This document shows positions 39,728 through 61,998 of a stretch of DNA of 64,000 nt, piece after piece (position 1 is the stretch's first letter; every line of letters starts with the position of its first letter). The stretch lies in assembly GCA_009760855.2 (NCBI GenBank), contig WPIO01000286.1, positions 1 through 64,000 of the forward strand. Direction: 5' to 3'. The notes under the pieces are model-generated. The model made no database searches. It was given only the letters and a program-made list of their open reading frames with translations, and had not been told where the DNA came from. A program made the position numbers and the translations under genes. Source of the stretch: Cristatella mucedo (taxonomy: Eukaryota; Bryozoa; Phylactolaemata; Cristatellidae).

Positions 39728-39897
39728 AAGTTCATTCTGCAAGATCGACGCCAGCCGTCGGTCACAGTCTGCACGATGCTAGCCGAAAGTTTAATGTAGC
39801 TATAGCAAATAGACTTCCCGATCAGAAGGTGTTTCAAGTTGCATCGTATTTGTATGCAGAGGAGATGCTAAAGGCCGCCGAGTTCGAAGCAATACAG
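39728..39897 (+). CDS. CARD-like domain, first half (internal exon)
   Basis: This 170-nt exon lies between a TTGCTTTTAG acceptor and a CAG/GTAACC donor. It enters with two bases of a split codon and leaves in phase 0. Its product has predicted helices SLHDASRKFNVAIANRL, DQKVFQVASYLYAEEML and KAAEFEAIQ. That is the helix 1-2-3 pattern of caspase-recruitment (CARD) domains, with the usual acidic start of helix 2 and an LxxxEFExIQ-type helix 3. Joined in phase 0 to 42164-42295 it gives a complete six-helix CARD of about 95 residues. CARDs are homotypic adaptors in apoptosis and innate-immune signalling. The frame is free of stops. What lies upstream in the transcript is not resolved; the RING/B-box at 4866 is one candidate. 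Confidence 0.7.
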
Positions 39898-40164
39898 GTA
39901 ACCGATTGAACAATTCTTTATGCAATCCTCCCGAAATGAGAAGCTCCATTGCAGGTCAAGTAGTGGGCTCACAGATGCTTTGCTATATTACTGGATGTAA
40001 CGCTGCCTACTTTAGCAGATTCGGCCTGCTGAGTATCGTGTGCTTGAATGTATACGACTACGAACTGCTGCTGTTACTTCTCGTTGTGAAATACAAACAG
40101 CTGTCTGCTGCAGTAATCAAACTAACGACCAGTCTCTTGAACACCTTAGGTCAAATCCTAAATA

Positions 40165-40505
40165 TTTAGCGATAGTCCGTCGGCGGCTGACTTGAAAAGT
40201 ACTTAGCAGCAAAGACGTGTGGGCGGTAGAAGAGGCATAACCCCAAGTGGCATGGCCAACTCCTGCGTGCCTGTTCGTTGCACTGTTTGTGCCTAAAGCT
40301 GGTCGCCACGCCTGCGGCGCTTTTGGTGTAATGCAGTTCCTCATTAGTGTAAGGTTTGAGAGTTCGTTGGCATGAACCGAGTTGAATTAGAAAGCCCTGG
40401 CAGGGAGTTTTCCTGAATTGTACTCGCAAGCACACGATGTCCCAGTGCCCCTATCTCAGTGCTTACCTTGCACAATACTCACACACTCCCTGTGCCAAGC
40501 ATGCT
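40165..40505 (-). repeat. Diverged relative of the LTR-like block at 29453-29895
   Basis: Shared collinear blocks on the plus strand are CGTGCCTGTTCGTTGC, AGCTGGTCGCCACGC, GAATTAGAAAGC, TACTCGCAAGC and CACACACTCCC. The relation is clear in order but divergence is high. It is placed on the minus strand by analogy. Confidence 0.45.
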
Positions 40506-40689
40506 AACGTCACCCTTAACACAAGGTGCTACGACGGAAGAAATAATTTGCATCGCTAGTTCCCTGAGGCAGAGTTTTTCAACCCAGTGCTGTGTAGGCA
40601 GCACCAGCGAAGACCCTTATCATGTATATAGGAAAATATTACTCTTTTCCTTCCTAACATGATGTTGGAATCGCCAACCACGTATGCCA

Positions 40690-40945
40690 TGCAATAAAGC
40701 TCCGTCTGTAACTCTACAAAGCCCCAAAAACTATTAAGGTGCTACGAAGGGCAGTTTTTTTTATACAGCTAATATCCTAAGCGGATTTCAGTATGCATTC
40801 GGTAGCCAGAGACTTCATTTCATGCAACATCGAGTAGTTGAAGTAGTGGCTAGAATGAAAGTAGCAGCTCAGGACCACTAGAAAGAATGAGTCACAGGTG
40901 GCAGTAGGAGAGTAGCTGTTGTTGCATAATACATTTTCGTTTTTA
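40690..40945 (-). mobile_element. LINE family B, 3' UTR
   Basis: CTCCGTCTGTAACTC, then CTAAGCGGATTTCAGTATGC, CATTCGGTAGCC and AAGTAGCAGCTCAGGACCAC on the plus strand, collinear with 56345-56600. The copy is diverged and ends against LINE A. Confidence 0.65.
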
Positions 40946-41420
40946 ATGTGGTCGAGTCAGGGAAAATCACGAGGCTAGTCGGAAGTGAGTTTCAGCCTTT
41001 TGGAGCAAACGAACAAGCAGCACGGCCTCCAAAGAGTTGATACTCATACAAGGTACAGGATTAGATTCTGAAAAAGGGAGTGGTGCTGTGCTCATCTTGG
41101 TGCGGGAGTAGATTTGATAGGTAGGCTAGAGCCAAAGAATGAAGATACCTAAAAGTGAGCGACACAACCTTTGAAGTCGATGCGTTGCTTGACTGGGAAC
41201 CAATGTAGGTTGGAGAGAATTGATGCGAGGTGGCCATTGTAACACTCACGACAGACAAGAATAGCTGCGAGTTTGGCACAAGCTGTAATCCGCCGATTAC
41301 ACCAGCCGATAGACCAGCAAGCAGTGAGTTACAGATGTCAAGACGGGATGTCACAAAGTTGGATTTGGTATTCCTGGCTAAACAAGCCCGAATTTTAGTT
41401 ATTTTATGTAGCTGACATTA
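40946..41420 (-). mobile_element. LINE family A, RT C-terminus
   Basis: Antisense RT C-terminal region (LDICNSLLAGL at about 41340 to FRYLHSLALAYLSNLL at about 41100) without hairpin or tail. It is a truncated remnant. Confidence 0.7.
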
Positions 41421-41944
41421 GCCATTTACCAATTTCGCCTACAGAAACGGTAAAAGATGGGAGTTACTTTACGAAGATCTGCTTTCCTGATTAGCTATTA
41501 CTGACCTGGAGCACTTCTGACTCATCAACGGATACAGATTATAGTTCTCATACTGTCCCACAAGGCTATTTATAGCTTAGCTCTCTCACAACTTTCTGAA
41601 CTGCTCTGCAAGTTTGAGCATCGCCATGCCATCAGGTTCTCTCTGCAGAAAAAGTAAGCTGTTCCTATTCGTTCCTTAAAAAAACTGTTTGCAACAGGTT
41701 TGGGAGAGTTTAAAAAGACCAGAGATTTCATGGACTCTCTGATTTGTAGGATGTCTTGACAAGTTAAACGCTAAGATACAGTCATGCATTCCTGGCAAGT
41801 ACTAGTTTCGTGAGTTAAAATTGAAATCGTTTGAGCCTGAACGCAACTGCTACGTAAATAAACGGCTGTACTTACCAGTTACGGAACAGTAACTATTGCA
41901 TATTCATTCTCTAAAACCCTGTTCTATGATTATTTTACGGTGCC

Positions 41945-42015
41945 TTTAACATTAATAACAATAATGTACTTGATAAAGCGCCCTCAGAGAACTTAATCTC
42001 TTTCTAGGCGCTCTA
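41945..42015 (-). mobile_element. LINE family A, terminal hairpin
   Basis: AATAATGTACTTGATAAAGC, then CCCTCAGAGAACTTAATCTC and AGGCGC. Only the last 70 bp or so of the element remain, about 150 bp upstream of the second CARD exon. Confidence 0.8.
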
Positions 42016-42163
42016 TCGGAATATTGAACACGGTATGCTCTTATAGCAACTTGACATTACAACGTGTACAGGCACAGCCTGCAAATGTAGGCTAGTCAGA
42101 GAAATCTCCCGTCAAAAGTCTCTGCCTTATCTTTTGCTGACTCTCAGCCCGTTCGTTTTGTAG

Positions 42164-42295
42164 GCCCAGCACACACAAATAGAAAGAGTTTTTAAACTCG
42201 TGGAATACTTATTAGTGAAGGGGGAAAGTGGAGCTGAGAAGTTTCTTGCAGCTCTTCGGCAATGTGAAGAACAAGAACTTGCAGATCAGATTAAG
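42164..42295 (+). CDS. CARD-like domain, second half (internal exon)
   Basis: This 132-nt exon is exactly 44 codons, phase 0 at both ends, between TTTTGTAG and AAG/GTGAGT (a strong donor). The product contains IERVFKLVEYLLVKG, then SGAEKFLAALRQC and EEQELADQIK. This is the helix 4-5-6 signature of CARDs, where helix 5 carries the FLxALR core and helix 6 the LAxxI core. The match to the family is better here than in the first half. With 39728-39897 it completes the domain without a stop. The downstream partner is probably the coiled-coil exon, which has a phase-0 acceptor option. The nearest alternative is another death-fold class (death effector or pyrin), which fits less well. Confidence 0.78.
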
Positions 42296-43050
42296 GTGAG
42301 TGAGCTGAAGTAGATATGAGTTTCAATTTGTTGGTGTCACGTGATTGAAAAGAGATTGATCACTCGTGAATCTCTAGTGAGCTAACCCAGGTAATTTTAG
42401 GGCTCGTGATTTACGGAGTTTCTAAAATGGTTGAGTCTACCTAAGTCGCATGCCAGTTAGCACTTATTATTATACGGCGATCGACTCCATCTGCAGCTCC
42501 AGCAAGTAACCATGGACTAGTCCGACTGAGTGAACTGTGAATGATCCCAGGTGAGCCCAGCTAACTATCTGCTGTGTCTGTAATAAGTAAGCTCAGATGC
42601 GTGTTCAGTTAGTGAGCCCAGGTGAGAGTCTATACCAGCAAGACAATACGTTTTCCCCACGTGCTTAATGGCATGAACCTTAACTCATTTTTAAAGAAGA
42701 ATGTAGTAATTCGCTGGCTTAGTGCCTTTAAAAGACATTTGCCATTCAAAACTTAAAAACTCAAGATGAGAGGATCGATACATTTGTGTCACTTGCATGG
42801 TCGTAACCTAACATTCAAAAGCGAACGAGTATGGCCATCGTGCTAAACTAAACATGGTACTCATTGCTATCGGCATGGATGACCGCCCACAAGTAAACTG
42901 TTCGAAATCACGGCCAGGTTCACAGGCAAAGTGCACCAGAACAAAAAAACATACACATTGAATAGGGCAAAGAGATGCTTACCAGAATAGAAGTGTTTTT
43001 GGCTGCAACTAAAATGATGCCTGGTTAGTGCAGGCAGCGATCAAGTTAGA
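42296..43050. other. Putative intron sequence
   Basis: No coding signal is recognised downstream of the CARD donor. Confidence 0.4.
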
Positions 43051-43054
43051 AGCT

Positions 43055-43710
43055 AGCTGAATTTTGTCGCTTTGTAGTTGCTGTAAGCTTGATTAGCAAA
43101 GATTTCAAATGAGTTCTGAATGTGGAACGAGGGATGGCGGAATGAATAGATTCTAAGGATCTGGTGGTGCACAGTTAAAGAGATAAGAGGTCGAAAGCAT
43201 AGGCTGGTTGAAGTAGATGGAATGAATTATAGGTTGGATGCAGAATCTCGAACTGAATCCAACGCTTGATTATAAGCCACCAATGGTCAGACGTAAGTTT
43301 TCTTATCAAGAGTTTAGTGAGAAACAGAGCTCCGGAATATGCCAAAGAATTGGCAGTTATTACCGGTACTTCCAAGTTCGGAAGTATTACCAGTCGATCG
43401 ATTAGGCCTTAACAGCATGCATTGTGATTATTCCGAACCCACTCTGCTTGTGATGGTAGGTCACTGATGACTTTGAAATTTACTCTCTTTCCAGAATAGC
43501 GTGACAGCCAAAGAAGGCTTGAGCAAGATAATGAAAGCACCTACAAGTGAGTGACAGAAACTTGTTGTTAATATGCTGCTTAATGACGAGCCAGCAGGCG
43601 TTGGTAATTCGTGGTGTTATGCGGAAATTGAGAAGTTGGCTGCAGGCAAGCCTAGCCTCAGAGTTGTGTACCTCTATAAGCACCTTTATCAATAGAAGGA
43701 GAATCTGCCA
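43055..43710 (-). mobile_element. Old LINE RT C-terminal fragments
   Basis: Two decayed minus-strand blocks. One at about 43375-43180 reads LIRKLTSDHWWLIIKRWIQF. The other at about 43690-43500 reads ARLACSQLLNFRITPRITNA. Both align to the C-terminal RT of family A/B-like LINEs but are too diverged to assign to either. Confidence 0.55.
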
Positions 43711-44640
43711 GTCGTGACTACCACTTGGCTGTTTCGTCGTTGTCCCAGCTGATATGAAGTTTTGGAATCGTTCATAGCTGGACGTCGGTGGACATATTTA
43801 AGGAGCTCATGCAATCTTTCATTGTAAAGTGATTTTAAAGAAGAACACTAAGAAATGCTACGGGGGGTGTGCTGGTAAAAATTGTTTTTACGGTTTTGCA
43901 ATACATATTAATTATATTTCCATGGAATTCTCAGAGAACTTAATCCCGATCAATGCACTGTACATAGACCATAATACGATTGAATAGCCACTTTAGAGAA
44001 CTGAATAGCTGGTCTAGGCACTTGGCAGGTATATTAAAAGTAGTATAATCTTATTGAAATGTAACCAAGCATAATACGACTTAATGCACAAAGTTAGTTG
44101 ATTTAATTTTCATTTAGTTTGAGAAATTTTAAATTTTGGCATGACTTTTGTTTCGGAAAACTAAACTTAAAAAACAGATGGAAGAAAGAGCACATAAAGC
44201 ACTTATTTTATGCCCACTGGCCGAAAGCTCATCTAGTGGAAGTGGTTCAGAAATTCTCCGTTGGTTATGGTTCGAACATGGATTAAGGTGGCAGCCCGAG
44301 GTAGACAATCCTGGGCAATATGCCACTTCCGAACCTAGAGGCTGTGCAACTTTATTCACCTGCAATAGGCTAATCGTGTCAGCGGCTTCAATTTCGAGTG
44401 TCTAAAAGGGTCAAAAGTAGGCATCATTTGGTCTGATCAGTTAGCAGTAATCCTCATTTGCAAGCTTTCTGAAGTAGTCTCAAAGAGTGGCTTTGAAGGG
44501 GTACATTGATGTGTAGCAAAGGACTGAGGGTGATGAATTGATAGTGTCTTACCGAATGTTTGACAGACTAGTGTTGAGTTATTCAATCACTGTGCCAGAT
44601 TACGGTGGTATAAATAGAATAAGAAGGCAACTTGGCAGCT
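43711..44640. other. Mostly unassigned intronic DNA
   Basis: It contains a weak decayed LINE A hairpin around 43925-44030 (TTCTCAGAGAACTTAATCCC). An 85-residue plus-strand frame (44148-44405) has no recognisable domain. Confidence 0.35.
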
Positions 44641-45242
44641 GCAGCTGGATATGAGTACTGCTGCAAGGCTAGTCTTCAAGTCCCAGAGGTTCGAACACGT
44701 GTCTCCTTTGCTTAAAGAGCTAGCGTGGCTGCAGGTTGATCAACCGATAGAGAGCAAAGTCCGTACAAAGATCCAGAAGGCCAGCAACGGCTTGGCTTCT
44801 CCGTTCCTTGCTGAACTACTGCACCAGTTTCAGCCTCTTTGGGCCCTCAGATCCTGTAAACACAAAAATTTGGCTGTTCCATGCTGCTGCTTAATGACCA
44901 TTGGCGACAAAAACTTAAGCTCTCAAGTCCTAGACTGTGGAACTCACTTTGCTTCCACGATTCTTAGCCAACGATAACTACTCTGTAGCTGCCGACTATG
45001 GCTCACTCTTTTCAGCGTTCCTGAACTCCTACTTCCATGCTACTCACTACCTCGACTGCCCTCCTGAATCTGCTATGCTGTCCACTTTCTATGTGTTGAG
45101 TTAAATGAAGTGTGTTGGCTACCGAAAGCACACCGCAAACCGCTTAGTCTGTGATTGGGCCGTACAAAGCTGTCCTGCGTCACACCCACGTAGTCTTTGA
45201 GGCCTTGAGGACTTACAGACAGAGATACATTACACTACACTA
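44640..45242 (+). mobile_element. LINE family B, RT C-terminus and 3' UTR
   Basis: STAARLVFKSQRFEHVSPLL, then KELAWLQVDQPIESKV continues the RT thumb. A stop ends the frame at about 44977. The 3' UTR runs through TGTTGGCTACCGAAAGC and ACCCACGTAGTC-type blocks to GAGATACATTACACTACAC, the (ATTAC)n-type tail. This is the best family B reference in the window. Confidence 0.8.
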
Positions 45243-45259
45243 ACAGAAGCTAGAAAGGC

Positions 45260-45515
45260 TTCTATATAACCCAGCGTTCAGTAGGCCATCGCATGATTCG
45301 TTCTCTGTATGCTTATGTCTCCTTACATCTATTGGTGCTGACACTAAACGCACTTGTTGTAGGCTGGCCCTGCGGAAGTCAGTATAACCATATTATGATA
45401 AGTATCATAGAGCTTGCTAGTACTAAACGTGCGATAGTCGTACTTCTTCTCCAGTAAATGTAAAGTGCCTAATAAGATATTAGGCTCTCTGAGGGTGCTA
45501 TATTAAGAGTATTTT
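45260..45515 (+). mobile_element. LINE family A, 3' UTR and hairpin
   Basis: Diverged 3' UTR (CTGACACTAAACGCACTTG) and hairpin (AAAGTGCCTAATAAGATATT, then CTCTCTGAGGG). The block continues into sequence also found after 60060. Confidence 0.7.
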
Positions 45516-45850
45516 TCTTTTCGATTGTTAGGATCTACCGTAGCAACGTATGCCTGTCGATTGACAATCAGTCCTGACATTTTTTCATACTTTTTTAAAG
45601 GTTGGGCTAAGTAGACCTAGCTAGCTTAACTTCTGCAGTTAACCATTTCCGTCAGGGTGAGGGCACACCGTGTGCTTAGTCAGAGAGGCAAACTAGTAGG
45701 ACATGTCTGTGAGCGTGATGTAAGAGCAATCTGTTAAAGGCCACAGGTCGGGAAGGTGGATTGAGCAGCAGAGGCACAGTGCACATTTTCGCATGGATAG
45801 CAAAGACGCTAAGGTAATTTAGGTTGTCTTTTAATTCACTTGTATTTTTA
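45516..45850. repeat. Dispersed repeat shared with 60080-60420
   Basis: Collinear with 60080-60420: TATGCCTGTCGATTGACAA, AAGTAGACCTAGCTAG, CGTCAGGGTGAGGGC, GCAAACTAGTAG, and GATTGAGCAGCAGAGGC. The last part resembles the region upstream of the LINE endonuclease at 27045-27110 (GACTGAGCAGCAGAGG), so it is probably old LINE 5' sequence on the minus strand. Confidence 0.65.
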
Positions 45851-45884
45851 AGTGAGGATGAGGTTCGCACACGGAATAATAATA

Positions 45885-46560
45885 ATAATCATAATATTGT
45901 ACATGATAAAGCTCACTCAGAGAACTTAATCTCTTTCTAGGCACTTTACATTTGCTGCAAAGGGAAATGCAATTGAATGGAAAGTAAAACCATGCTTGAA
46001 AAACAAACAAAATGAATAATATGGTTAGGGTTAGGGGTGACATGCACAGGGTCAGCATGCAAATGTGGTTAGTGGCAGCATGCACAGTGTCAGCACGCAT
46101 AAGCACATGAAAGACGAATCACAGGGACCCACTAAATGCTGTCCTAAATAGATGTGTTTTTAAGTTCCCTTTAAATGTGGTCAGGTCAGGGGATGTTCTG
46201 ACGCAGGTCGGGAGGGAGTTCCAGGCTTTGGGAGCATATGAACTAAATGCACGGTCTCCAAAGGATTTAAGGTTTGTATGAGGTATTTGTAGACTGTTGG
46301 ATTCCGAAAAGCGGGTGGTACGATGCTTGGCCTGATGGGGGAGTATATCGGAGAGATAGAATGGAGCCATAGAATAAAGGGACCTAAAATTGAGTGACAA
46401 AACCTTGAAGTCAATCCGTTGCTTGACTGGTAGCCAGAGCAGGTCTGCGAGAAGTGGAGTAATGAGGCAACAGCGAAGCTCACGACAGACAAGCCTAGCT
46501 GCACAGTTTTGCACCAGCGGCAATCACCTGATCGCACGTGCTAGTAGGCCAGTAAGCATT
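45885..46560 (-). mobile_element. LINE family A, 3' half (in D1)
   Basis: (ATT)n tail, antisense hairpin, 3' UTR, and RT C-terminus open on the minus strand from 46523 to 46119 (LLADLLWLPVKQRIDFKVL, ending AFSGSL). Well preserved. Confidence 0.9.
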
Positions 46561-46729
46561 GAGTTTTTCACTCCAGCTTCAATCAAACCTGGCGGATGTG
46601 GCCATATTCGCTAGCCTCAATTTAAAAATGTTTGCAGTTCCCTTAAAAAAGTCTTGTGAATCTTTCGCTGCAAGTCAATTTTTTAGTGAGCTGACAACTT
46701 TTCTATCGCTCGAAGGAAATAAGTCCTTA

Positions 46730-46800
46730 TTATTATTATTATTCATTATTTATTTATTATTTATTTATTTATTATTTCATTTATTATTCATTATTCATCG
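46730..46800. repeat. (ATT/ATTT)n tract
   Basis: Simple sequence of ATT, ATTT and ATTC units. It is absent from the duplicate at about 53805. Confidence 0.9.
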
Positions 46801-46908
46801 CAGATTATTCTATTATCGTTGTGAGTCTTCACTCTTAAATCAATCTAGCCACGTTGTGTTCGATTTTAAATTTGATTTTGATAAATATCTGTTCATTTAA
46901 GCGAACTT

Positions 46909-47175
46909 TTGTTACTGGAGGACTCGATCACTCTTGCCGCCCATGTACGTCACCTTACTCAATTTAAGGCTCACACATTCCGCCACACGTTTCTTTTAAA
47001 CCGAATGCCAACTTCAGCAACGCCAAAATTCCGCCTATCTAACCACAGGCTGATCTCAGTCAGTCTACACGATGTGCCCTCCTCCACATCAAAGGTCATC
47101 TGTGAATTGCGAAACCCTGAGACTGGTGGTATCGATGCTATCCGCTCTAGAAATTATTTTCTAGGCCCCAGCTAA
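46909..47175 (+). CDS. Unassigned 88-residue frame ahead of a LINE A tail
   Basis: The frame reads LLLEDSITLAAHVRHLTQFK, then HTFRHTFLLNRMPTSATPKF, and ends NYFLGPS. It is followed within 25 bp by the LINE A hairpin and tail. The duplicate at 53935-54200 has lost one A in an A-run (CCAAAATTCC to CCAAATTCTG) and is frameshifted. I do not recognise the protein. It may be the C-terminus of a different element using the family A 3' end, or captured sequence. Confidence 0.4.
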   Translation: MLLEDSITLAAHVRHLTQFKAHTFRHTFLLNRMPTSATPKFRLSNHRLISVSLHDVPSSTSKVICELRNPETGGIDAIRSRNYFLGPS

Positions 47176-47194
47176 TTAATCGACCCTCCAACCT

Positions 47195-47285
47195 TTTCCT
47201 TTGCAGCAATTGTAAAGCGCCTAGAAAGAGATTTAGTTCTCTGAGGGAGCTTTACCAAGTTGTGATATTATTATTCATAACAGGT
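47195..47285 (+). mobile_element. LINE family A hairpin and tail after a foreign body
   Basis: GTAAAGCGCCTAGAAAGAG, then TTCTCTGAGGG and TATTATTATT. The sequence upstream is not the usual family A 3' UTR. Confidence 0.75.
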
Positions 47286-47601
47286 AGAATTCTACAACAC
47301 GACTCTAGCTAACATGCTTGACAAGTTCTTGCTCTGGGTTAGTTCACTGGCTGTCCTCGTGCTGACGAACTATACGGTTTAACACGGATGATAAACTAGC
47401 TAGGTGAACTAAGTTAAAGTTTTTGCGACAGCATGGGAAAGATCAGTACTTATTTCTTATTGAAAGGTTGCTTGTTATTATTTTGATTATAATATTATAT
47501 GCTTGTATTATTATTATTTGCTATCATTATTGACATATTTCTTAGGTCTACCGTCGGTTATCATCTTTAGCATTCCCACATTAGCTCCTTACTTTGTGAC
47601 C

Positions 47602-47668
47602 CTATACCCTACTAGTCTCGTCGACCTTATAACCAGGTATAGGGTCTCTGAGACTAGTAGGGTATAGC
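47602..47668. repeat. Large inverted repeat (hairpin) in D1
   Basis: Arms CTATACCCTACTAGTCTC and GAGACTAGTAGGGTATAG are perfect complements around a loop that itself contains a CCTATACC/GGTATAGG-type partial repeat. The same structure is at 54614-54680. It sits directly against a LINE A 3' end. Confidence 0.85.
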
Positions 47669-48250
47669 ATCCTCGGAGAGCTCGATCTCTTTCGAATATT
47701 TGTAAAAAGGCTGCAAATAAAGCTTGATCAAATGGTTATTTGCATTATGCTGAATATGCAACAAGAATAACAAGGTTGGTGGTGAAATGCACAGGATTAG
47801 CATGCTAGCATGGTTAGTGGCAGCATGCACAGTTTCAGCATGCATAAGCACTCAAACGGTGAATCACAGTAATTCGCTAAATGCTATCATAAATAGATGC
47901 GTTTTCAATTTCTTTTTAAATGATAATAAACCAGGAGACTTCGCGATGCAGGTCGGGAGTTAGTTCTCAGCTTTGGGAGCATGGGAACTAAAAAGGCACA
48001 ATATTCAAAGGATTTGAAATGTGTATGGCGTATGGGTAAATTATTGTATTCCGAAAAATTGGTGGTACGACGCCATGCGTCCTTGGGAAGTAGATCTGTT
48101 AGGTAGGCTAGAGCCAAAGAATGAAGGACTGAAAAATGAGTGATAAGATAATGAATTCGGTGCCTTTCTTTACTGGAAGCCAGTGCAGGCGGCAACAAGT
48201 GATGTGATGTTGCAACTGTGATGCTCACGAAGACAAGCCTAGTTGAAGTA
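47669..48250 (-). mobile_element. LINE family A, diverged 3' half (in D1)
   Basis: Antisense hairpin (GCATCCTCGGAGAGCTCGAT), 3' UTR and RT C-terminus. More diverged than the other LINE in D1. It lacks an (ATT)n tail and instead abuts the inverted repeat. Confidence 0.75.
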
Positions 48251-48929
48251 GTAGTAATTACCATTAAATTTAGATCCCGCTCATTAGCAACGTTTTGTGT
48301 TTGAAACCGTGTGTTATAAAACAGTCGTTAATATAAATAATGGTTATTTTCAAACGGCTACAGCGATGACGTCTGGACAATTTAAGCTACTCATGCTGGT
48401 ACTATACAAAACTGCACTATTGAGGTATCCTGTTAAAATGGTTTCAAGATAGATCAGCCCAATAACTACCAAGATGAATAACATTTACGGTTAATTTATT
48501 GTAAGGGCTACAGGAAGATAGTGTGGTTTTCTATAATTAGATGTCCTAAATGTCGATGTCAAGTACTAATGAAGAACTGACTGTCTGAGCAGTTAAAGAA
48601 ATTCCAGCAGAGCCAGATAGATATTTTGATGCGTCCTGCAAGAGCTTTATTATGTGAGTTTAAAATGATTAAACATATAGATATAATGTCGATTGTTCAT
48701 GCAAGTGCCTAATATTTTGAGCTGTAGGTGCTAATGCAATCCAAACCCCCTTTCAATTAGAGCGATTCATTGCTTGGGCTACAGCTTAAGCACTGGCAGC
48801 TAGCCTGAAACATATTTTGAATTGAGAGTCCATATGAACCTATGAATGTACGAACGGATATAAAACCTATATAATTACTGATATATAATTACGGATATAT
48901 AATTACTGTTGGCTTATCGAATAGCACTG
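48251..48929. other. Unique DNA of D1, no gene recognised
   Basis: Also present at 55265-55875. It is highly conserved between the two copies but has no coding signal that I can see. Confidence 0.4.
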
Positions 48930-49075: not shown

Positions 49076-49644
49076 CTAAAGAAGGTGCCAACGCACATTT
49101 TTGGTATAGCTATTGCTGACAAAATATGCTAATCATTCTTGTAACTATGTCTCCTTATAATGCATGTTCATTTGTATCCGAAGTAGTTGCAATCTGAGGT
49201 GTAGAAAGTTCGATTGGCTTTATAACTTCCTTAGCACGCTAACCGTAAATTGTCGTAGAAATGGCATTCACAGTGGATTCATTGCAGTTACATTTTTGAT
49301 AAAACTTAAAAATACAATAGGAGAAAAAAATTACGTTTAGTTGCTTTGCGAATGAATATTGGGTTCTTACAGCTTACTGCTTGTGTGGCACTATTTATTA
49401 ATGTATATTCAATACTGCAGGCCGGTAACACCACGTTACCACGAACCAGCTTACATTTTTTGACATAGCCTTATAATATGAATTTAGTAAAGTTAATTTT
49501 TATTTGCGCAGTCTTGAAACTTCTGAGGTTTAGTTTAAAGCAGCATTCTGTCTTTATTCGAATTGATTGAGAGGATATTATGCTCGAACACTGACATATT
49601 TAGTTATATTTATATTTACTTTTAAATGTTTCCGCTTCAAAGAG

Positions 49645-49801
49645 CAACAGGAAAGCCAAATCAAAGAGAAGGAAGAAATTACACGGAAGCTGCAAGAGAA
49701 TTGTCAACTGCTGTCACAACAGTTGGAGCTTGAGCTTGGGAAAAGTCAGAAGTTGCAGAAGCTTCTGAATCACAAGGAGACCCAGTTTAAAGTTGCTCAA
49801 G
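49645..49801 (+). CDS. Coiled-coil exon 1 (internal exon)
   Basis: This 157-nt exon encodes a heptad-rich, Glu/Lys/Gln/Leu segment (KEEITRKLQENCQLLSQQL, then ELELGKSQKLQKLLNHKE). It ends at CAAG/GTTAGC in phase 1, which matches the two-base entry of the propeller exon at 61130. The acceptor is CTTCAAAGAG. Splicing after the second AG gives phase 0, compatible with the CARD exon 42164-42295. Splicing two bases earlier would give a 159-nt, phase 1-1 exon. Coiled coils in TRIM-type and CARD proteins drive oligomerisation. There are no stops in the frame. Confidence 0.68.
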
Positions 49802-50559
49802 GTTAGCATCATGGGAGCGGCCTTTGCAAGAATTTAGGCTGAGCCTATAACTCGATTGATTTGAGTCTCGCAGCCTGTTATTTGTATGCATTTCTAGATC
49901 AAATTGCTATTTTTATGGTCCTTGAATTGATTATTAACAGAAATATGCCGAGCCGTGACTGCCGTAGCAATGTAAACTTGCTTGGAAGGGAGCTGAATGA
50001 ACGTTTTCTATTCTCAGCATTGCCTCTTGCCGCCCTGCATTACTTTCTAAAAGTGCTGCAGTTAATCCCTCTAACGTAGTAGTCATCAGGCCTGCTATAG
50101 CCTTAGCAGCCCTGCTTAACAATGCATGCCTTCCAGTGCTTGCTAAATTGAACGAACCCCCTAGAATACTTGCAGTAATTACTTCAAACGGCTTTACCAT
50201 TTTCTGATATATTTGATATTTCTGATATATTCGCTCCGACTCTCAGCTAAGTGGTGGGCAATGTTAATAAGTTGTGGACTCTAGGTTTGCAGTTGCAAAC
50301 TTTTCACGTCTACTGCTGGTGGTCGAGATAGCCAGCAAGGCTCTCCAGAAATCATCTCCTACTTCTATATAATTGTAAGTTCTAAATGAGCCTACCTGTA
50401 TCTACTAATCAGTTGTTTCGAACTTTCTGTACTATTTGTTAGTGAGTATTTGCTCCAAATATATTAGGAAATATTAATGTTTGTTTCGAAGTTTACTCAC
50501 CAGTGCTCGTGCATTTCCAAAAGTACTCAATGTATTATGGTTCGTTTATCAGGGAACAC
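49802..50559. other. Intron-like DNA after coiled-coil exon 1
   Basis: The 72- and 88-residue frames here (49861-50079 plus and 49934-50200 minus) recur in C2 only because the block is duplicated. No domain is recognised. Confidence 0.4.
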
Positions 50560-51880: not shown

Positions 51881-52309
51881 GTATATATTGCATCTGCCTT
51901 AGCACACCAAGCTTCAAATAATGTAGAAATCACATTCACAGTGGAATCACTGCAGTTAAATTCTATAATACCTAAATTTACAATAGGAGAATAAAATTAC
52001 GTTTAGTTGCTTTGCGAATGAATATTGAGTTCTTACAGCTTACTGCTTGTGTGGCACTATTTATTAATGTATATTCGATACCGCAGGCCGGTAACACCAC
52101 GTTACCACGAACCTACTTACATTTTTTGACATAGTCTTATAATATGAATTTAGTAAAAATAATTTTTAATTGCGCAGTCTTGAAACTTCTGAGGTACAGT
52201 TTAACGCAGCAGTGTGTTTTCATTAGAATTGATATGGAGGACATTATGCTCTTACACCGACATATTTACTTATATTTAAATCACTTTTAAATGTTTCCGC
52301 TTCAAAGAG

Positions 52310-52466
52310 AAACTGGAATACGAAATCCAAGAGAATCAAGAAAATATACGGAAGCTGCAAGAGAAATGTCAACTGCTGTTACAACGGTTGGAGCTTGAGC
52401 TTAGGAAAAGTCAGAAGTTGCAGGAGCTTCTGGATCACAAGGAAAAAACATTGAAAGTTGTTCAAG
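52310..52466 (+). CDS. Coiled-coil exon 2 (duplicate internal exon)
   Basis: Same length (157 nt), same borders (TTCAAAGAG and CAAG/GTTAGC) and same phases as exon 1, still open. It reads QENIRKLQEKCQLLLQRL, then ELELRKSQKLQELLDHKE. Roughly two thirds of the 52 residues match exon 1. Many differences are conservative (Lys/Glu/Gln) and heptad leucines are kept. Both exons ending in phase 1 from a phase-0 start means they could not be used together without a frameshift, which suggests alternative use. With the 159-nt border they could be used in series. Confidence 0.65.
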
Positions 52467-52954
52467 GTTAGCATCATGGGTGCTGCATTTGCAAGAATTT
52501 TGGCTGAGCCAGTGATTCGATTTATTTAAGTCTCACAGCCTGTTATTTGCATGCATTTCTTGATCAAGTTGCTATTTTGTGGTCCATTATTGATTACTAA
52601 CAGAAAACTGCTGAGCTATGACTGCTGTAGCAACCTAAGCCTGTCTGGCAGGGAGCTGAATGAACGTTTGCTATTCTCAGCATTGCCTCTTGCCGCCCTG
52701 CAATACTTTCTAAAAGTGCTGCAGTTAATTCCTCTAACGTAGTAGTCATCAGGCCTGCAATAGCCTTCGCAGCCCTGCTTAATAATACATGACTTCCAGT
52801 GCTTGCTAAATTGCACGAACCCCTTTGAATACTTTCTGTAATTACTTCAAACGGCTTTAACATTTTCTGATATATTAGACTTGACCGAGAACTTTCAGAA
52901 ATCGATTGACTGCTAGACCATAACCAGTAAAACAGCTGCAGGCTTTCTTTTTTA
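52467..52954. other. Intron-like DNA after coiled-coil exon 2
   Basis: Duplicate of 49802-50225, followed by about 70 bp of unassigned sequence before D2. Confidence 0.4.
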
Positions 52955-53640
52955 ATGAAAATAGTAATAATAATGCACTTGATAAAGCGCCCTCTGGGAA
53001 ATTAATCTCTTTCTAGGTGCTTTGCATTTGCTGCAAAGGGAAATGCAATTCAATGGTAAGTAAACTCATGCTTGAAAAACAAACGAAATGAATAACATGG
53101 TTTAGGGTGACATGCACAGGGTCAGCATGCAAATGTGGTTAGTGGCAGCATGCACAGTGTCAGCACGCATATGCACATCAAGGACGAATCACAGAGACCC
53201 ACTAAATGCTGTCCTAAATAGGTGTGTTTTTAGGTTCCTTTTAAATGTGGTCAGGTCAGGGGATGTTCTGACGCAGGTCGGGAGGGAGTTCCAGGCTTTG
53301 GGAGCATACGAGCTAAATTCACGGTCTCCAAAGGATTTAAGGTTTGTACGAGGTATTTCCAGACTGTTGGATTCCGAAAAGCGAGTGGTACGATGCTTGG
53401 CCTGATGGGGGAGTATATCGGCGAGATAGAATGGAGCCATAGAATGAAGAGACCTAAAAGTGAGCGACAAAACCTTGAAGTCAATCCGTTGCCTCACTGG
53501 TAGCCAGTGCAGGTCGGCGAGAAGTGGAGTAATGTGGCAACTGCGACGCTCACGACAGACAAGCCTAGCTGCAGAGTTCTGCACCAGCTGCAATCGCCTG
53601 ATCGCACATGCTGGTAGGCCAGTAAGCAGTAAGTTATTTC
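52955..53640 (-). mobile_element. LINE family A, 3' half (in D2)
   Basis: Counterpart of 45885-46560. The RT C-terminal frame is open on the minus strand from 53593 to 53189. (ATT) tail at 52965-52975. Confidence 0.9.
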
Positions 53641-53934
53641 ACCCCTGCTTCAATCAAACCTGGCGGGCGTGGCCATACTCGCTAGTTTCTCCCTCAAATT
53701 TTAAACGTTTGCAGTTCCCTCAAAAAAGTCTTGTGAATCTTGTGTTGCAAGTTTATCTTCTAGTGAGCTGACAACTTTTCTATCGCCCAAAGGTAGTAAG
53801 TCCTAATTTATCGCAGATTATTCTTATATCATTGTGAGTCTTCACTAATAAATCAATCTACCCACGTTGTGTTCGATTTTAAATTTGATTTCGATAAATC
53901 ATCTGTTCCTGTGAGCGAACCTTTGTTACTGGAG

Positions 53935-54290
53935 GACTCAATCTCTCTTGCGGCCCATGTACGTCACCTTACTCAATTTAAGGCTCACACATTCCGCCAC
54001 ACGTTTCTTTTAAACCGAATGCCCACTTCAGCAACGCCAAATTCTGCCTATCTAACCACAGGCTGACCTCAGTCAGTCTACACGATGTGCCCTCCTCAAC
54101 ATCAAAGGTCATCTGTGAATTGCGAAACCCTGAGACTGGTGGTATCGATGTTATTCACTCTAGAGAATATCTTCTAGGCCCCAGCTAATTAATCCACCTT
54201 CCAACCTTTTCCTTTGCAGCAAAGGTAAAGCGCCTAGAAAGAGATTTAGTTCTCTGAGGGAGCTTTACCAAGTTGTAATATTATTATTCT
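53935..54290 (+). pseudogene. Frameshifted duplicate of the 88-residue ORF, with LINE A tail
   Basis: Counterpart of 46909-47285. The frame is lost near 54040 by a single-base deletion; downstream sequence still matches in the other frame (VIHSREYLLGPS). The LINE A hairpin and tail follow at 54225-54290. Confidence 0.6.
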
Positions 54291-54613
54291 TAACAGGTAG
54301 AATTCTACAACACGACTCTAGCTAACATGCTTGACAAGTTCTTGCTCTGGGTTAGTTCACTGGCTGTCCTCGTGCTGACGAACTATACGGTTTAACACGG
54401 ATGATAAACTAGCTAGGTGAACTAAGTTAAAGTTTTTGAGACAGCATGGGAAAGATCAGTACTTATTTCTTATTGAAAGGTTGCTTGTTATTATTTTGAT
54501 TATATTATTATATGCTTGTATTATTATTATTTGCTATCATTATTGACATATTGCTTTGGTCTACCGTCGGTTACCATCTTTACCATTCCCATATTAGCTT
54601 CTTACTTTGAGAC

Positions 54614-54680
54614 CCTATACCCTACTAGTCTCGTAGACCCTATAACCAGGTATAGGGTCTCTGAGACTAGTAGGGTATAG
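54614..54680. repeat. Large inverted repeat (hairpin) in D2
   Basis: Same arms as 47602-47668. The loop differs at two bases or so; the arms are unchanged. Confidence 0.85.
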
Positions 54681-55262
54681 CGTCCTCGGAGAGCTCGATC
54701 TCTTTCGAGTATTTTTAAAAAGGCTGCAAATGAAGCCTGAACAAAAGGTTATTTGCAGTATGCTGAATATGCAACAAGAATAACAAGGTTAGGGGTGACA
54801 TGCATAGGATCAGCATGCTAGTATGGTTAGTGGCAGCATGCACAGTGTCAGCATGCATTAGCACACAAAAGGTGAATCACAGGGATTCACTAAATGCTGT
54901 CATAAATAAATGCGTTTTTAATTTATTTTTAAATCTGATCAAGTCAGGAGAAGTCGTGATGCAGGTCGGGAGTTATTTCTCTGCTTTAGGAGCATGGGAA
55001 CTAAAAAGGCACAATATTCAAAGGATTTGAAATGTGTATGGCGTATGGGTAAATTATTGTATTCCGAAAAATTGGTGGTACGACGCCATGCGTCCTTGGG
55101 AAGTAGATCTGTTAGGTAGGCTAGAGCCAAAGAATGAAGGACTGAAAAATGAGTGATAAGATAATGAATTCGGTGCCTTTCTTTACTGGAAGCCAGTGCA
55201 GGCGGCAACAAGTGATGTGATGTTGCAACTGTGATGCTCACGAAGACAAGCCTAGTTGAAGT
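54681..55262 (-). mobile_element. LINE family A, diverged 3' half (in D2)
   Basis: Counterpart of 47669-48250, near-identical in its distal half. Confidence 0.75.
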
Positions 55263-55875
55263 AGTAGTAATTACCATTAAATTTAGATCCCGCTCATTAG
55301 CAACGTTTTGTGTTTGAAACCGTGTGTTATAAAACAGTCGTTAATATAAATAGTAGTTATTTTCAAACGGCTACAGCGATGACGTCTGGAAAATTACAGG
55401 TAATCATGTTGGTACCATACAAAACTGCACTATTGAGGCATCCTATTGAAATAGTTTCAAGATAAATCAGCCCGATAACTACCAAGATGAATAACATTTA
55501 CGGTTAATTTATTGTAAGGGCTACAGGAAGATAGTGTGGTTTTCTATAATTAGATGTCCTAAATGTCGATGTCAAGTACTAATGAAGAACTGACTGTCTG
55601 AGCAGTTAAAGAAATTCCAGCAGAGCCAGATAGATATTTTGATGCGTCCTGCAAGAGCTTTATTATGTGAGTTTAAAATGATTAAACATATAAATCTAAT
55701 GTTGATTGTTCATGCAAGTGCCTAATATTTTGAGCTTTAGGTGCTAATGCAATCCAAACCCCCTTTTAATTAGAGCAATTCATTGCTTGGGCTACAGCTT
55801 AAGCACTGGCAGCTAGCCTGAAATATATTTTGAATTGAGAGTCCATATGAACCTATGAATGTACGAACAGATATG

Positions 55876-56344
55876 AAACGATTGTTCACTTTATTAAAAG
55901 CGTGCATGACGGTTTGGAATGTATACCAAAGCTTCTTTGCCAAATTCTGGCTTGGAAAAATATGCGAACAATGATTTCTTGTATGATTTCCATAAATGGA
56001 TGTTTGTTTCTTATCGATCAGACTGTGCATGGAGATAATCGGCAAAAACTAGGCTGCTTGACGAATCGTAGAGCACGTCCAAAGCACAACTAGAGTGACT
56101 ATGCATACAAGAGGTTCAATGGTAGCTACATTCCATCTCGTGGTAATTTATTTGAGCTTAGGAGCTAAGGTGCTTGCTCTTTACGGCTAATGTTGAGTGT
56201 TCAAATCTTGCTGGGCCGAGTTTGTATTTTTAAGTTGAGGAATTGGTATAGCAATGAGGCCGTTATGCCATACTACAAACAATGCAGTTCAATCACCCAA
56301 TATTTCTTAATATTCACTTCGTTCATGTGCTTCCCACTATAATA
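55876..56344. other. Mostly unassigned, with a tRNA-like remnant
   Basis: At about 56155-56222 (plus) GAGCTTAGGAGCTAAGGTGC and GTGTTCAAATCTTGCTGGGC have tRNA A-box/B-box-like spacing and look like a decayed SINE head. The rest is not recognised. Confidence 0.35.
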
Positions 56345-56860
56345 TAACGTAACGCATCTCCGTCTGTAATTCCACAAAGCCATAAGGACTATGTTGGTAT
56401 TACACAGGAGAGTTTGGCATAGCGAACTCACAGCCTCAGGGGCTGTCGGTATGCATTCGGTAACCATCAAAGTTCATCTCAAGCATCAGAGAGAAAGTGG
56501 AAAGCATAGCAGAGTCAGGAGAGCGGTTAAGGTAGTGAGTAGCATAGAAGTAGCAGCTCAGGACCGTTGGCAAGAATTAGCTATAGTCGGAAGCAGGAGA
56601 GTAATTGTTCTTGCATAAGAATCGTTGAAGCGAGTTTCACGGTCTAGTACCTGCACAGGTAAAGCTTCTGTCGCCAACGATCCTTAAGCGGAGGAATGGA
56701 ACAGCTAATTTATTTTCCATAAAGGCACTGAGGGCACGAGGAGGCTGAAACTGGTGCAGCAGTTCTGCTAGGTACGGAGGATCCAAGCTGATGTGGGCAT
56801 TGTGGGTCAGCGTAAAAGCTTTGCTTATTTTATCCGATGAACAACCGGCAGCTATCCTAG
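56345..56860 (-). mobile_element. LINE family B, RT tail and 3' UTR
   Basis: The plus strand reads antisense from the 3' end (CATCTCCGTCTGTAATTCC) through the 3' UTR to the RT C-terminus (GTGGGTCAGCGTAAAAGC, antisense of the KVLTLTHN region at 19350). It is the longest minus-strand family B piece here. Confidence 0.75.
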
Positions 56861-57379
56861 CTTACTTAGCAAATAAGAGACACGGTCAAACCTCTGAGAC
56901 CTGAACGTTAGACTTGCAGCTATATTCATAGCCAGCTGCAATGGCCTAGTTGCTTTCTTTGGTAGCTTAGCCAAATGGGAATTACAACAAGCAAGCCGAG
57001 ACAAAACTAAGGTTCTGCCAATCGCAATAATGCAACGGCAGCTGTATAGAAATATAAATCATTGTGGAACATGGACTGTCCTAGGAACTGGATTCCACCG
57101 GCTAAAAACTGGCTAAGGCAATGCCCTTAACTTCATAGTGCTAACTCTTAAAGCCGTTCTGGGAAAACGGATCAAAACCGCAGTTTCAATGTGGAACTTG
57201 AGGAGTTATCTCACAGTTTAATTAATCATATCTGCCATATGTGCTATTACAGGCCTTAGCATGAGGAACAGCATAGTCGCATTCGATCTATAACATACAT
57301 TTTAAACTATGTTGTCTGTTATTTGAAAAATAAAACCGCAATTACCCTGTGTGAAGATAATTTAAAATATATTTATTGT
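56861..57379. other. Spacer, nothing recognised
   Basis: No gene is seen. The first 170 bp or so may be decayed family B RT (antisense). Confidence 0.35.
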
Positions 57380-60080
57380 GTATAGCGCATTAAGTACTTA
57401 CATCCAGTGAAAAACTCTGCAGCTACGCTTATCTGTCGTGAGCTTCGCAGCAGCGATGTCACACCACTTCTCACCGATCTGTACAGGCTACCACTCAAGC
57501 AAAGCATCGATTTCGAGGAATCGTCACTCACTTTTTGGTCCCTTCATTATTTGGCCCCTGTGACCTATCAGATTTACCCCCTACCAGGCCATCGTGCCAC
57601 ACACTTTACAGAATTTAGTGTTTACCCCTTCCCCTAACGAATCTCAAATCCTTTAGAGACCGAGCCTTTAGTTTGCATGTTCCGAAAGCCTGGCACTCAT
57701 TCCGACTTGCTTCGCGACCTATCCTGACTTATCCTGACCAACCTATCCTGACTTGTCCACTTTTAGAAAGAATCTAAAGCTCATCTATGTACCACGGCCT
57801 TTGCTGAGTCCCTGTGATTCGTCCTAAATGTTTTTATCTGCTCTGACAATTGGTATGCTACCACTAACGAGACTTGTATGCAGATCTCGTGCAGGCCACC
57901 CCTAACCATGTTATTTTTGACAGTTATTGTGCTTGCTACCACTAACCATTTGATCATGCTTCTTTTACAGCAAATGTGAAGTGAGTAGAAAAATTCTAAT
58001 TTTTTGAGGGTGCTATATCAATGTCTTATCACAAATATTATTCGTATACCTCATTTTGAATCTGGACGAAATCTGTGTGTGTATTCCGTAGTGACAGTTT
58101 ATTAGATGACCACGTGGGCTATGCTATTGATTCTTTCTACTTTCTGCTACCTAACAAAGGTAGAATTTGGGTTCGTTTAAACAAAAAATTCCATCTAATT
58201 GGTACATGCATTAGGAAAATCCTGTATTAATTTCTGTAACTCACAAATTGCGTATCTACTAGCAACTTCAATTAGGCGTTTGCACACGTATGGGAAAAAT
58301 TTCTGTTTCAATCTCGGAAGATTCGTATTCGTTATATCAAACCATGCTTCCTTTACAAGGAATGTAAAGTCACTAAAAAGAGATTGTGTTCGGAGATTGA
58401 TTATTGATTGGGCTGTGGATTTATAGTAATCAATATTATTATTTTTAATATTATTAATCCACTTCTTTTAGCTGACCTGCACTATCGACTTCCCACCAGG
58501 CTCAAAATACTACCACTCGCTTTTCGGAATATAGTCGCTTACCTAAATGTCGCAAGGAGCATCTAATTGATAGGCAACGATGCCGCTCGTTCTCATCCTC
58601 CACAAGCCCGGAACTCTCTTCGAACCGGCGTCACGACGTTCTCTTACCTGAACAGACATAAAAAGATTCTATCAATGCGTCTATATATTGCAGCGTTTAG
58701 TGGGCTTGCAGGATTCATCCTCTGTGTATATTCATCCTCTGTGTGACCCGGTGCAAGTCACACTAACCATGTTATGCTGGTTATCATTTAGCATGCCTCC
58801 ACTAACCATGCGACCATGCTTTCTTTCCAGCAAACGCGAAGTGCCTAATATAATACATCTGGTGCAAAACTTGCATCATTACATCTGTTGCAAAACTCTG
58901 CAGCTTCGCTTATCTTTCGTGAGCTTCGCAGCTGCCACATCTCACCACTCTGCACCGACCTGTACTGGCTACCAGGCAAGCAAAGCATCGACTTCGAGGA
59001 ATTTTCACTTACTTTTCGGTCCCATTTTATTTGGCCCCTGTTACCTATCAGATCTACTCCCCTACAGACCTTCATTCCACAAACTTTGCATAATTTAATT
59101 GTTTACCCATTCCTCTAACAAATCTCAAATCAAATAGAGACTGAGCCTTTAGTTTGTAGCGACAGTTAATTAGATGACCACATTGGTTCTGCTATCGATT
59201 CTTTCTACTTTCCTCTATGTAACAATGGTGGAATTCAGGTTCGTTTAAACAAGCAAAATCCCTTCTAATTTTCAGATACATTGGAGAAATCCTGACTTAA
59301 TTTCTGTAGCTCTCTAATTGCTTATCAGCTAGCCAGTACAGTAATGCGTTTGCATATGGGGAAAATCTCTGTTTCTTTGTCGGAAGAGTCTTATTTGTTG
59401 CGTCACACCTCGCTTCCTTTGCAAGGAATGTAAAGTTCCTAGAAATAGTTTGAGTTCTGAGATTGTGTATTGATTTCGCTGTAGATTTATTGACATTACT
59501 ATTATTATTGTGAATATTATTATTCAACTACTTTTAGATGACCTGCACTGGCTACCAGTCAACAATGTTGTTGACTTCAAGGATTTATCAAGTACTTTTA
59601 GGTTCTTTTTATCTTAATCCTATCTGGCAGATCTACTTCCCGCCAGGCTCAGAATCGTACCACTCGCTATTCGGAATATAATCGCTCACCTAAATGTCGT
59701 AAGGAGCCTCAAATTATTCGGAAATGCTGCTATTATTACTCATCCTCCAGAAGCCCGGAATTCACTTCGAAGTGGTGTAACAAAGTTCCCTTTCCTGAGC
59801 AGATTTCAAAAGAATCAAAAATGCATCCATATATAGCAGCGTTTAGTGGGCGCTCGTGATTCGTCCTCGGCGTATGTATGCCTTCTTACAATATGGATGT
59901 TGTCACTAACCACACTTGCAGCTTGACCCGGTGCAAGTCACCCTAGCCATGTTATGCTTGTAATCATTTAGCATGCTACCACTAACCTTGTGACCATGGT
60001 TTCTTTCCAGAAAACGTGAAGTGCCTAATAAAATATTAGGCTCGCTGTGGGTGCTATGTATCAAGTGAATTATTCTTTTC
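57380..60080 (+). mobile_element. Tandemly duplicated, diverged LINE family A-like fragments
   Basis: RT C-terminal pieces with their own 3' UTR and hairpins occur in series: 57400-58040, 58060-58450, 58455-58860, then again 58870-59150, 59150-59530 and 59535-60080. The second series repeats the first in order (for example TCTGCAGCTACGCTTATCTG at about 57413 and TCTGCAGCTTCGCTTATC at about 58897, and the frames CHISPL/SDVTPL). This implies a tandem duplication of about 1.4 kb of a nested LINE cluster. The hairpins are degraded (GAAGTGCCTAATAAAATATT). It is a more diverged sub-family than the other A copies. Confidence 0.75.
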
Positions 60081-60420
60081 GCTTGGTAGGATATACAGTA
60101 GTCCTCGTATGTCTGCCGATGGACAGTCAGTCCCGACCTTTTGTATACTTTTTTGAAGCTTTGGCTTAGTAGACCTAGCTAGTTTAATTTCTGTGGTAAA
60201 CCATAGGCCGTCAGGGTGAGGGCTCACAATGTGCCTGTTCAGAGATGCAAACTAGTAGAGCATGCCTGCTAGTGTGACGTGAAAGCAACCTATAAGTAGT
60301 GACAGGTCTTAAGGTGGATTTGAGCAGCCGAGGCCTTGCAAAAACGTTCGCATGGACATCGTTGACGTCAACGTTCTCGAGGCTTTATTATTCATACGTA
60401 TTTTCATATGAAAAAGAGGT
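60081..60420. repeat. Dispersed repeat shared with 45516-45850
   Basis: Collinear blocks as described for 45516-45850. Here too it follows a family A-like hairpin, so the repeated unit includes the preceding LINE end (59830-60420 against 45260-45850). Confidence 0.65.
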
Positions 60421-60478
60421 TTTCACTCGGTATAGACTCTGTGAGATCTGCATGTGGTCAGATAGGCAACGTTGGTAA

Positions 60479-60559
60479 TAATTGGTCTTAGTAGCCTGTG
60501 TTAGTAGGAGACATTTGGTCAAATGTCTCCTACTAACACAGGCTACTATGACCAATTGG
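60479..60559. repeat. Near-perfect 80-bp palindrome
   Basis: Two arms of about 39 bp are complementary with one mismatch (TCTTAGTAGCC against GGCTACTATGA) and almost no loop (centre ACATTTGGTCAAATGT). It would extrude as a cruciform or fold as a long RNA hairpin. It could be a tiny foldback element, but it lacks a visible target duplication. Confidence 0.9.
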
Positions 60560-60971
60560 CAAATAGCTGGCTGTAGCCAGCATTCTGTTGTGGAGTCATA
60601 TTTTTGCTGTGGTACTAGAAAGCTGTTACTGCTGTGGTAATTTGTGTACCGTAGAGTTGAACGACTTTCTTGTTAAGGTAATGTAATTTCCTTATGTACC
60701 TAGACTTGTACGACTTTTGTGCTAAAGAAACGTTTAAAGGTAAAGTGTAGTCGCGTTGAAAGAAACTTTTAAATGTAAAAATGCATTGGTGCGATGTGAG
60801 GTGTCTGTCGATGTGTAGTTGATTAATCACTCAGCAATGACTCTTACCTCGACTTTTTTTTTTACTTTCTGGTCGTGCCTTCTACTCCTAAGCACGTCTG
60901 GACATTTTTATTTCTTGCCTTTAGCTATTAACGTATCAATTGCAATGCTAGTCACTACTGGTTGTTAGCTT

Positions 60972-61051
<80 letters not shown>
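60972..61051. repeat. (AT)n microsatellite
   Basis: About 40 uninterrupted TA units, in the putative intron 80 bp upstream of the propeller exon. Confidence 0.97.
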
Positions 61052-61053
<2 letters not shown>

Positions 61054-61129
61054 CAAGAATTTTGAATATATTTTAGCTGCTTAGAGATTGTTATCTTATA
61101 TTTATTTTGTAACTATTTATTTGTATCAG

Positions 61130-61998
61130 TCGTTTGGACAGCTATTCGTGCCAGCTGGCGTTATCCGACCTGCTACGACGTGGCTGTCGCAGATGAAGAC
61201 ACTGTGCTAGTGGCTGCTTCCGAGCAAGGACTGAAGGAGTGCGACACGAGAGGGAACGAGCTGCACTGCTGGAGACCGAAAGGAGGAGAAGACGAGAGCG
61301 TCTGCACAGTGGACGTGCTGGACGACGGTCGAGCGGCTGTTGGCTTGTTTGCTTCAAAGCAGGTCGTGCTGCTGCGACGCAGCTCTGCCTACGGCCGCGC
61401 CTGGCTCGAAGACAATTGTGTCGCTGTGCTGCAGTCACCTGCGAGGCAACTGTCCGTCCACGGTAAGATCCTAGCTGCATGTGAGAATAGGTGGAACAGT
61501 GAGGAATCAAAGAGTTAGTGGCCTAAACTAACAAATCCTAACCGCTGGGTGCCTGGCCCTCAGCTGGTGCTCGTGAAACTGGATGATGCTACATCGCTGT
61601 ACCGAAGTAGGCTGGAGTACGACATTAGCAGCGTTGCAGTAACGGATCTAATAGTCGTCGCAGCTAGCGAATTTAAAGTCAAGCTCAGCGACATGAGAGA
61701 AATGTATGTGGTGGACGGCTACAATTACTCTGGCGACAGACTCTGGCGACACGAGCGAAGCTGTAAAGTTATAGACATTGTGCCCTTTGGACACGTGCTA
61801 TACCTGGCTGTGTGTAACAACAACGTCGTGCAAGCCATCGGAATTGATGACCGTCAGCACCTGATGAATGCCGTAGCATGCGACAGACCGCACGCACTGT
61901 CGCTGGCTAAAGGAAAGCGCGTCCTAGCGGTCATTAGAAGAGATGAGAAGAACCATCCATGTCAAGTGACCGTCTACCAAGTCAGTGGCTCCACTTGA
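61130..61998 (+). CDS. Beta-propeller-like last exon (paralogue 2)
   Basis: The exon follows a TTATTTGTATCAG acceptor and enters with two bases of a split codon, fitting the phase-1 donors of both coiled-coil exons. The frame carries VAVADEDTVLVAASEQGLKE, HCWRP, DGRAAVG, VVLLRR, VAVLQSP, then ISSVAVTDLIVVAA, RLWRHE, VLYLAV, VLAVI and VTVYQ, ending at TGATAATGA. Repeated short beta-strands suggest a propeller; the fold is inferred. It is homologous throughout to 1276-2152. One TAG at 61516-61518 interrupts the frame within a 72-nt insertion absent from paralogue 1. No phase-compatible GT/AG intron removes the stop cleanly, so it is either a nonsense mutation or an intron I cannot resolve. In similar architectures this position carries a ligand- or substrate-binding domain. 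Confidence 0.72.

Follow-up and report, generated by a model that had tools for sequence, protein, structure and literature searches.

A CARD divided by a phase-0 intron

The window analysed here, a 64,000-nt stretch of Cristatella mucedo contig WPIO01000286.1 to which all coordinates refer, carries on its plus strand the two halves of a CARD, a coiled-coil-like exon candidate present in two copies, and a propeller-like exon, in that order; these lie in the main interval under study, 39728–61998, and may belong to a single gene copy, which is probably decaying (Table 1). The preliminary description of the locus had presented these as four stop-free exons with GT/AG borders. The borders and phases are as it gave them, and both the CARD halves and the coiled-coil-like copies are open, whereas the propeller-like exon is interrupted by a TAG at 61516.

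That the two CARD halves, exons A and B, join exactly in phase 0 had also been proposed, and the hidden Markov model (HMM) search suggested as a check bears this out: the joined product matches the Pfam CARD model (PF00619) with 34.4 bits (100 residues) or 35.0 bits (86 residues), against a gathering cut-off of 23.9. The sister model CARD_2 scores 26.9–27.6 bits, just under its cut-off of 28.2. Against the Pfam CARD model, exon A by itself gives no match, exon B by itself gives 21.1 bits, and a join shifted to the acceptor six bases downstream gives 25.5 bits. Ten decoys were made by joining exon B to other open segments that lie upstream, between 36.2 and 42.2 kb, and end in a phase-0 GT; these were taken from ranks 2, 3, 5–9 and 11–13 of 56 by donor score (ranks 4 and 10, each three bases from a donor already used, were omitted). 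Their donors score 2.86 to −2.77, versus 3.37 for that of exon A, and the joined products reach 18.9–21.2 bits, none of the ten passing the cut-off. By these controls, the CARD score depends on joining the halves exactly in phase 0.

Splice-site scores throughout derive from approximate textbook matrices, not trained on the C. mucedo genome. By these, the exon A donor ranks first among the 56 phase-0 donors with at least 40 open codons between 36.2 and 42.2 kb, and exon B, with a score of 10.9, is the top plus-strand internal-exon candidate in the window, one minus-strand candidate being higher (12.3). The site scores of exon A sum to about 3.8, which is not outstanding and falls below the listing limit of 6.5 in the internal-exon scan of both strands. 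There is no in-frame ATG ahead of the CARD in exon A, and at least one upstream exon is therefore needed. A PDB sequence search with the CARD returned weak matches only, the best being RAIDD (expect value (E) 0.2), followed by designed proteins and NOD1. The CARD and its intron are real and well supported, mainly by the HMM, and the CARD stands whether or not it forms one protein with the propeller.

A family of propeller-like exons

The propeller-like exon of the main interval, P2, has a paralogue, P1, close to the start of the window, and a scrap of a third copy lies downstream. Over 212 codons, P1 and P2 differ at 90, 76 and 118 first, second and third codon positions, respectively, and the ratio of the nonsynonymous (dN) to the synonymous (dS) substitution rate is about 0.45, a value given without a significance test, which points to constraint on the amino-acid sequence. 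The propeller family is probably real. The predicted structure of P1 is all-β, at low confidence, and the list of Foldseek matches to it is headed by the NHL propellers of Thin and Mei-P26, with TRIM71, Lin41, TRIM2 and WD40 propellers also present; the model of P2 (predicted local distance difference test (pLDDT) 37) has no Foldseek match at E ≤0.001, and its weaker matches, which include propellers, are not relied on. Neither P1 nor the two pieces of P2 matched Pfam NHL, with E values up to 1 considered, and a PDB sequence search with the propeller profile gave no match. An internal repeat as good as that of P2 arose in 11 of 2000 shuffles; for the halves of P1 the figure was 1991 of 2000, and the repeat is not significant there. 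The propeller splice sites are unremarkable by their scores.

Coiled-coil-like exons in a duplicated segment

The coiled-coil-like exon candidates lie in the two units of a duplication of about 1 kb and share their borders (exon edge marked by a slash): CAAAGAG/ precedes 49645 and 52310, and AAG/GTTAGC follows 49801 and 52466. Heptad-like leucines, as judged by eye, are present in both. Copy 2 matches ADIP and ANG-1 weakly, below the cut-off (E about 0.08), and likewise the unrelated family DUF3734 (0.16); copy 1 has no Pfam match. Both copies are open, whereas neutral simulations with 24 changes put a stop into 75–77% of the copies, which favours coding. The site scores of the exon sum to about 1.1 at best, below the listing limit. 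On the minus strand, both duplication units also hold open frames that resemble each other (49934–50242 and 52597–53001).

Table 1. Features of the window, beginning with the main interval
Feature	Position	Strand	Remarks
CARD exon A, N-terminal half	39730..39897	+	Two-base entry, exon start at 39728; acceptor TTTTAG; donor CAG/GTAACC, phase 0
CARD exon B, C-terminal half	42164..42295	+	Phase 0 to 0; acceptor TTTTGTAG/; donor AAG/GTGAGT
Coiled-coil-like exon candidate, copy 1	49643..49801	+	Phase 1-1 cassette, 159 bases; phase-0 version of the preliminary description starts 49645
Coiled-coil-like exon candidate, copy 2	52308..52466	+	Phase 1-1 cassette; phase-0 version of the preliminary description starts 52310
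Duplication unit 1, with coiled-coil-like exon	49226..50213	+	About 1 kb
Duplication unit 2	51894..52876	+	88% identical to unit 1
Propeller-like exon P2	61130..61998	+	Acceptor TATCAG/, 2-base entry; frame broken by TAG 61516–61518; terminal TGA at 61996
21-codon stretch with in-frame TAG	61492..61554	+	Missing from paralogue P1
Paralogous propeller-like exon P1	1276..2058	+	Phase-1 acceptor at 1275 (chosen by eye); frame change near 1907–1909
Propeller scrap, third copy	63797–63865	+	60.9% similarity over 23 residues
Decayed RING and B-box piece, TRIM-like N-terminus	4833..5416	+	RING and B-box in different frames; stops in B-box frame; runs into gag-like frame
Gypsy-type retroelement	5369–9870	+	Gag zinc knuckle, protease, reverse transcriptase and RNase H domains; interrupted frames

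Surroundings of the locus

Some 34 kb upstream of the CARD lies a decayed piece in which the RING scores 21.9 bits (cut-off 21) and the B-box 15.4 bits (cut-off 24.1); it hints at a TRIM-like origin. TRIM-like propeller genes arranged in tandem could give the plus-strand order P1 – RING/B-box – CARD – coiled coil – P2; a gene shared by the RING piece and the CARD is only hypothetical. The Gypsy-type retroelement next to this piece presumably lacks the N-terminal part of its gag, judged by our understanding of gag anatomy. No pair of long terminal repeats (LTRs) was recognised around it within 2–13 kb; an 81-base pair, 81% identical, flanks it at 4436 and 12880 and was set aside, as it resembles a dispersed repeat.

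Half of the window is covered by alignments to its other parts. The repeats earlier reported in the gaps of the candidate gene are indeed there: 37% of 39728–61998 lies under at least two self-alignments, and exons A and B are free of any. A minisatellite at 20445–20724 (14 copies of a 20-base unit, 99% match) is open in all three minus frames, and internal-exon candidates with high splice scores lie on the minus strand at 864–801 (12.3, the best of the window) and 949–801 (10.3).

The Pfam scans, in which stops were read as X, took in the plus strand at 1–4.8 and 9.9–64 kb. They are poor at finding split domains, the real CARD being seen only as exon B with 13.4 bits, below the cut-off. Reverse transcriptase alone exceeded its cut-off; CARD exon B, B-box, ANG-1 (in coiled-coil copy 2), DUF1232, DUF2208 and an ice-binding family appeared below theirs. 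No transfer RNAs or Rfam families were found in the window.

One gene or several

We favour, with a probability of roughly 0.4, a single decaying CARD – coiled coil – propeller gene over two separate genes or an intact one. It would be a transposon-stretched plus-strand gene of the propeller family that carries a CARD, perhaps TRIM-like in origin, and would comprise an upstream exon, the CARD with its phase-0 intron, one or two coiled-coil cassettes and a C-terminal β-propeller. An intact relative would use its propeller as the sensor, to bind a ligand, and its coiled coil to form multimers; the CARDs, once clustered, would draw in CARD partners (caspase or NF-kB adaptors) through homotypic assembly. 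Such a scheme draws on the general behaviour of CARD, coiled-coil and propeller domains. It draws also on the logic proposed for repeat-bearing TRADD-N proteins (PMC8195603). As the preliminary description had it, the CARD, a heptad-like helix exon and the propeller-like exon follow one another on one strand; its chain is less secure at the joining acceptor, which is poor, and in the propeller, which is interrupted. In favour of the single gene, the phases from coiled coil to propeller agree (1 to 1), an agreement expected by chance in about a third of cases. The signs of decay are the TAG in P2, the frame change in P1 and the lesions in the RING/B-box piece. Since the frame of the P2 propeller is broken, this gene copy is probably decaying, and the stop makes it doubtful as a working gene.

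Several observations weigh against the favoured reading. The phase-0 acceptors that the preliminary description used for the coiled-coil-like exon are present, and the exon is open with a phase-1 donor, but they are weak (−4.7 and −4.1, with 70 and 64% of the AGs in the window as good or better). A better score, −1.03 (29% of the AGs as good or better), is reached by the acceptor that lies two bases further upstream (CTTCAAAG/AG); it turns the exon into a phase 1-1 cassette, which fits the phase-1 propeller and clashes with the phase-0 donor of exon B; the latter matches only the poorer coiled-coil acceptor. Moreover, the two copies differ at 9, 9 and 6 first, second and third codon positions, and only one of the 20 differing codons is synonymous (dN 0.19, dS 0.09, from few sites). 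In neutral simulations, 12% of the open copies have at most one synonymous codon. The copies show no signal of purifying selection against each other, and relaxed or diversifying change is indistinguishable from drift. The gaps between the modules would be candidate introns of 7.3 and 8.7 kb. The Foldseek matches of P1 have template modelling scores of 0.37–0.54 to the query, mostly with a root mean square deviation above 8, on a model with pLDDT 46. Finally, searches of protein, genome-contig and viral-contig sets found no relative, an absence that says little, as the contig sets are microbial or viral and animals seem scarce in the protein set. Because a poor acceptor has to be used between CARD and coiled coil, no signal of constraint is seen in the coiled coil and the propeller is interrupted, the three modules as one transcript, encoding an immune-type protein, are possible and plausible, but unproven.

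In a somewhat unlikely alternative, a CARD gene with its other exons unrecognised is followed by a separate coiled coil – propeller gene of TRIM-like type, and their succession is a coincidence in a repeat-rich array. The phase 1-1 cassettes would suit such a downstream gene and not exon B, the same-strand RING/B-box piece is the N-terminus expected of a coiled coil – NHL gene, and a tblastn search found no second CARD near P1, the upstream part of whose gene lies beyond the window. This division into two genes is opposed by the lack of any recognised terminal exon for the CARD gene in 42.3–49.6 kb, where 0-to-1 exons were the class listed systematically. The best of the 222 phase 0-to-1 candidates between the CARD and the coiled coil, a 52-base bridging exon at 43495–43546 with good sites (second on the plus strand), lies 71% in a dispersed repeat and is probably due to chance. 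That the CARD – coiled coil – propeller gene is intact and expressed, the TAG at 61516 being removed by an unrecognised intron or introduced by an assembly error, is improbable. A fair donor does stand right before the TAG (among the top 0.6% of GTs in the window), and both coiled-coil-like copies are open despite the stops expected under neutrality; however, there are as many as 122 introns that would delete the stop and keep the frame, which makes the existence of one uninformative, the best-scoring of them delete residues common to P2 and P1, and P1 is itself frame-changed.

Less probable again is that the coiled-coil-like exons are parts of an anonymous 1 kb repeat that happen to be open, with the CARD and propeller joined directly or not at all. 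The copies are 84.7% identical and their flanks 87 and 84%, no excess of third-position differences is seen, and the acceptors are weak. Against chance stand the openness of both copies, their heptad-like leucines and identical borders, and the ADIP and ANG-1 matches of copy 2, these last tempered by the DUF3734 match and by the silence of copy 1. Least probable, in our view, is a decaying TRIM-like E3 gene spread over 57 kb with the order RING – B-box – CARD – coiled coil – NHL-like propeller, in which the CARD would follow the B-boxes and precede the coiled coil; the half that carries the CARD might persist without its RING.

Were the favoured CARD – coiled coil – propeller gene to encode one protein, it would add to the animal death-fold sensors an arrangement in which no nucleoside triphosphatase switch is recognised, and would suggest that coiled-coil clustering replaces nucleotide-driven assembly. 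If the copy is decaying, it shows transposons stretching and breaking members of fast-turning families. The RING-bearing version, if true, would unite ubiquitin ligation, death-fold assembly and propeller sensing in one protein.

Comparison with known systems

TRIM-NHL proteins (TRIM2, TRIM32/Thin, TRIM71/Lin41 and Mei-P26) resemble the locus in the putative NHL-like propeller of the fold search, the coiled-coil-like exon ahead of it and the same-strand RING/B-box; they differ in that here a CARD stands in between, Pfam NHL does not match, and the RING/B-box is decayed and remote. TRIM2, 3, 32, 45, 56 and 71 have been grouped in one animal TRIM subfamily (PMC3503706). APAF-1, described in PMC2575513 as CARD – NB-ARC – WD40, shares with the proposed gene an N-terminal CARD and a C-terminal propeller, whereas here the middle is taken by a coiled-coil-like exon and no NB-ARC is recognised; NB-ARC gave no match in the three plus frames of 39.7–64 kb, although a split domain could escape the Pfam scan. 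Proteins of the CARD9/CARD11 type likewise have a CARD followed by a coiled coil, which here amounts to only some 52 residues per cassette; to our knowledge, that family has no propeller.

The sponge Dysidea avara has 39 CARD genes and 20 CARD – NACHT – LRR genes (PMC12909245). In Amphimedon there are 357 TRADD-N proteins, most with one to three death-fold domains and variable C-termini, and each Branchiostoma species has 13–129 DED – TRADD-N – WD40 propeller proteins, both counts from PMC8195603. No match to TRADD-N was found in the plus-strand Pfam scans, whose sensitivity for split domains is low. The preliminary description knew of no family with the present order, and the titles and abstract openings listed in searches of open-access papers, none of them about a CARD – coiled coil – propeller protein, do not contradict it; close analogues nevertheless exist. 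The Branchiostoma proteins have DED and TRADD-N in place of CARD and coiled coil, yet share with the proposed gene an N-terminal death-superfamily adaptor, a C-terminal β-propeller and lineage-specific expansion. Death-fold plus propeller proteins are thus already known in marine animals, and the CARD – coiled coil – propeller order, if true, would be a variant of them.

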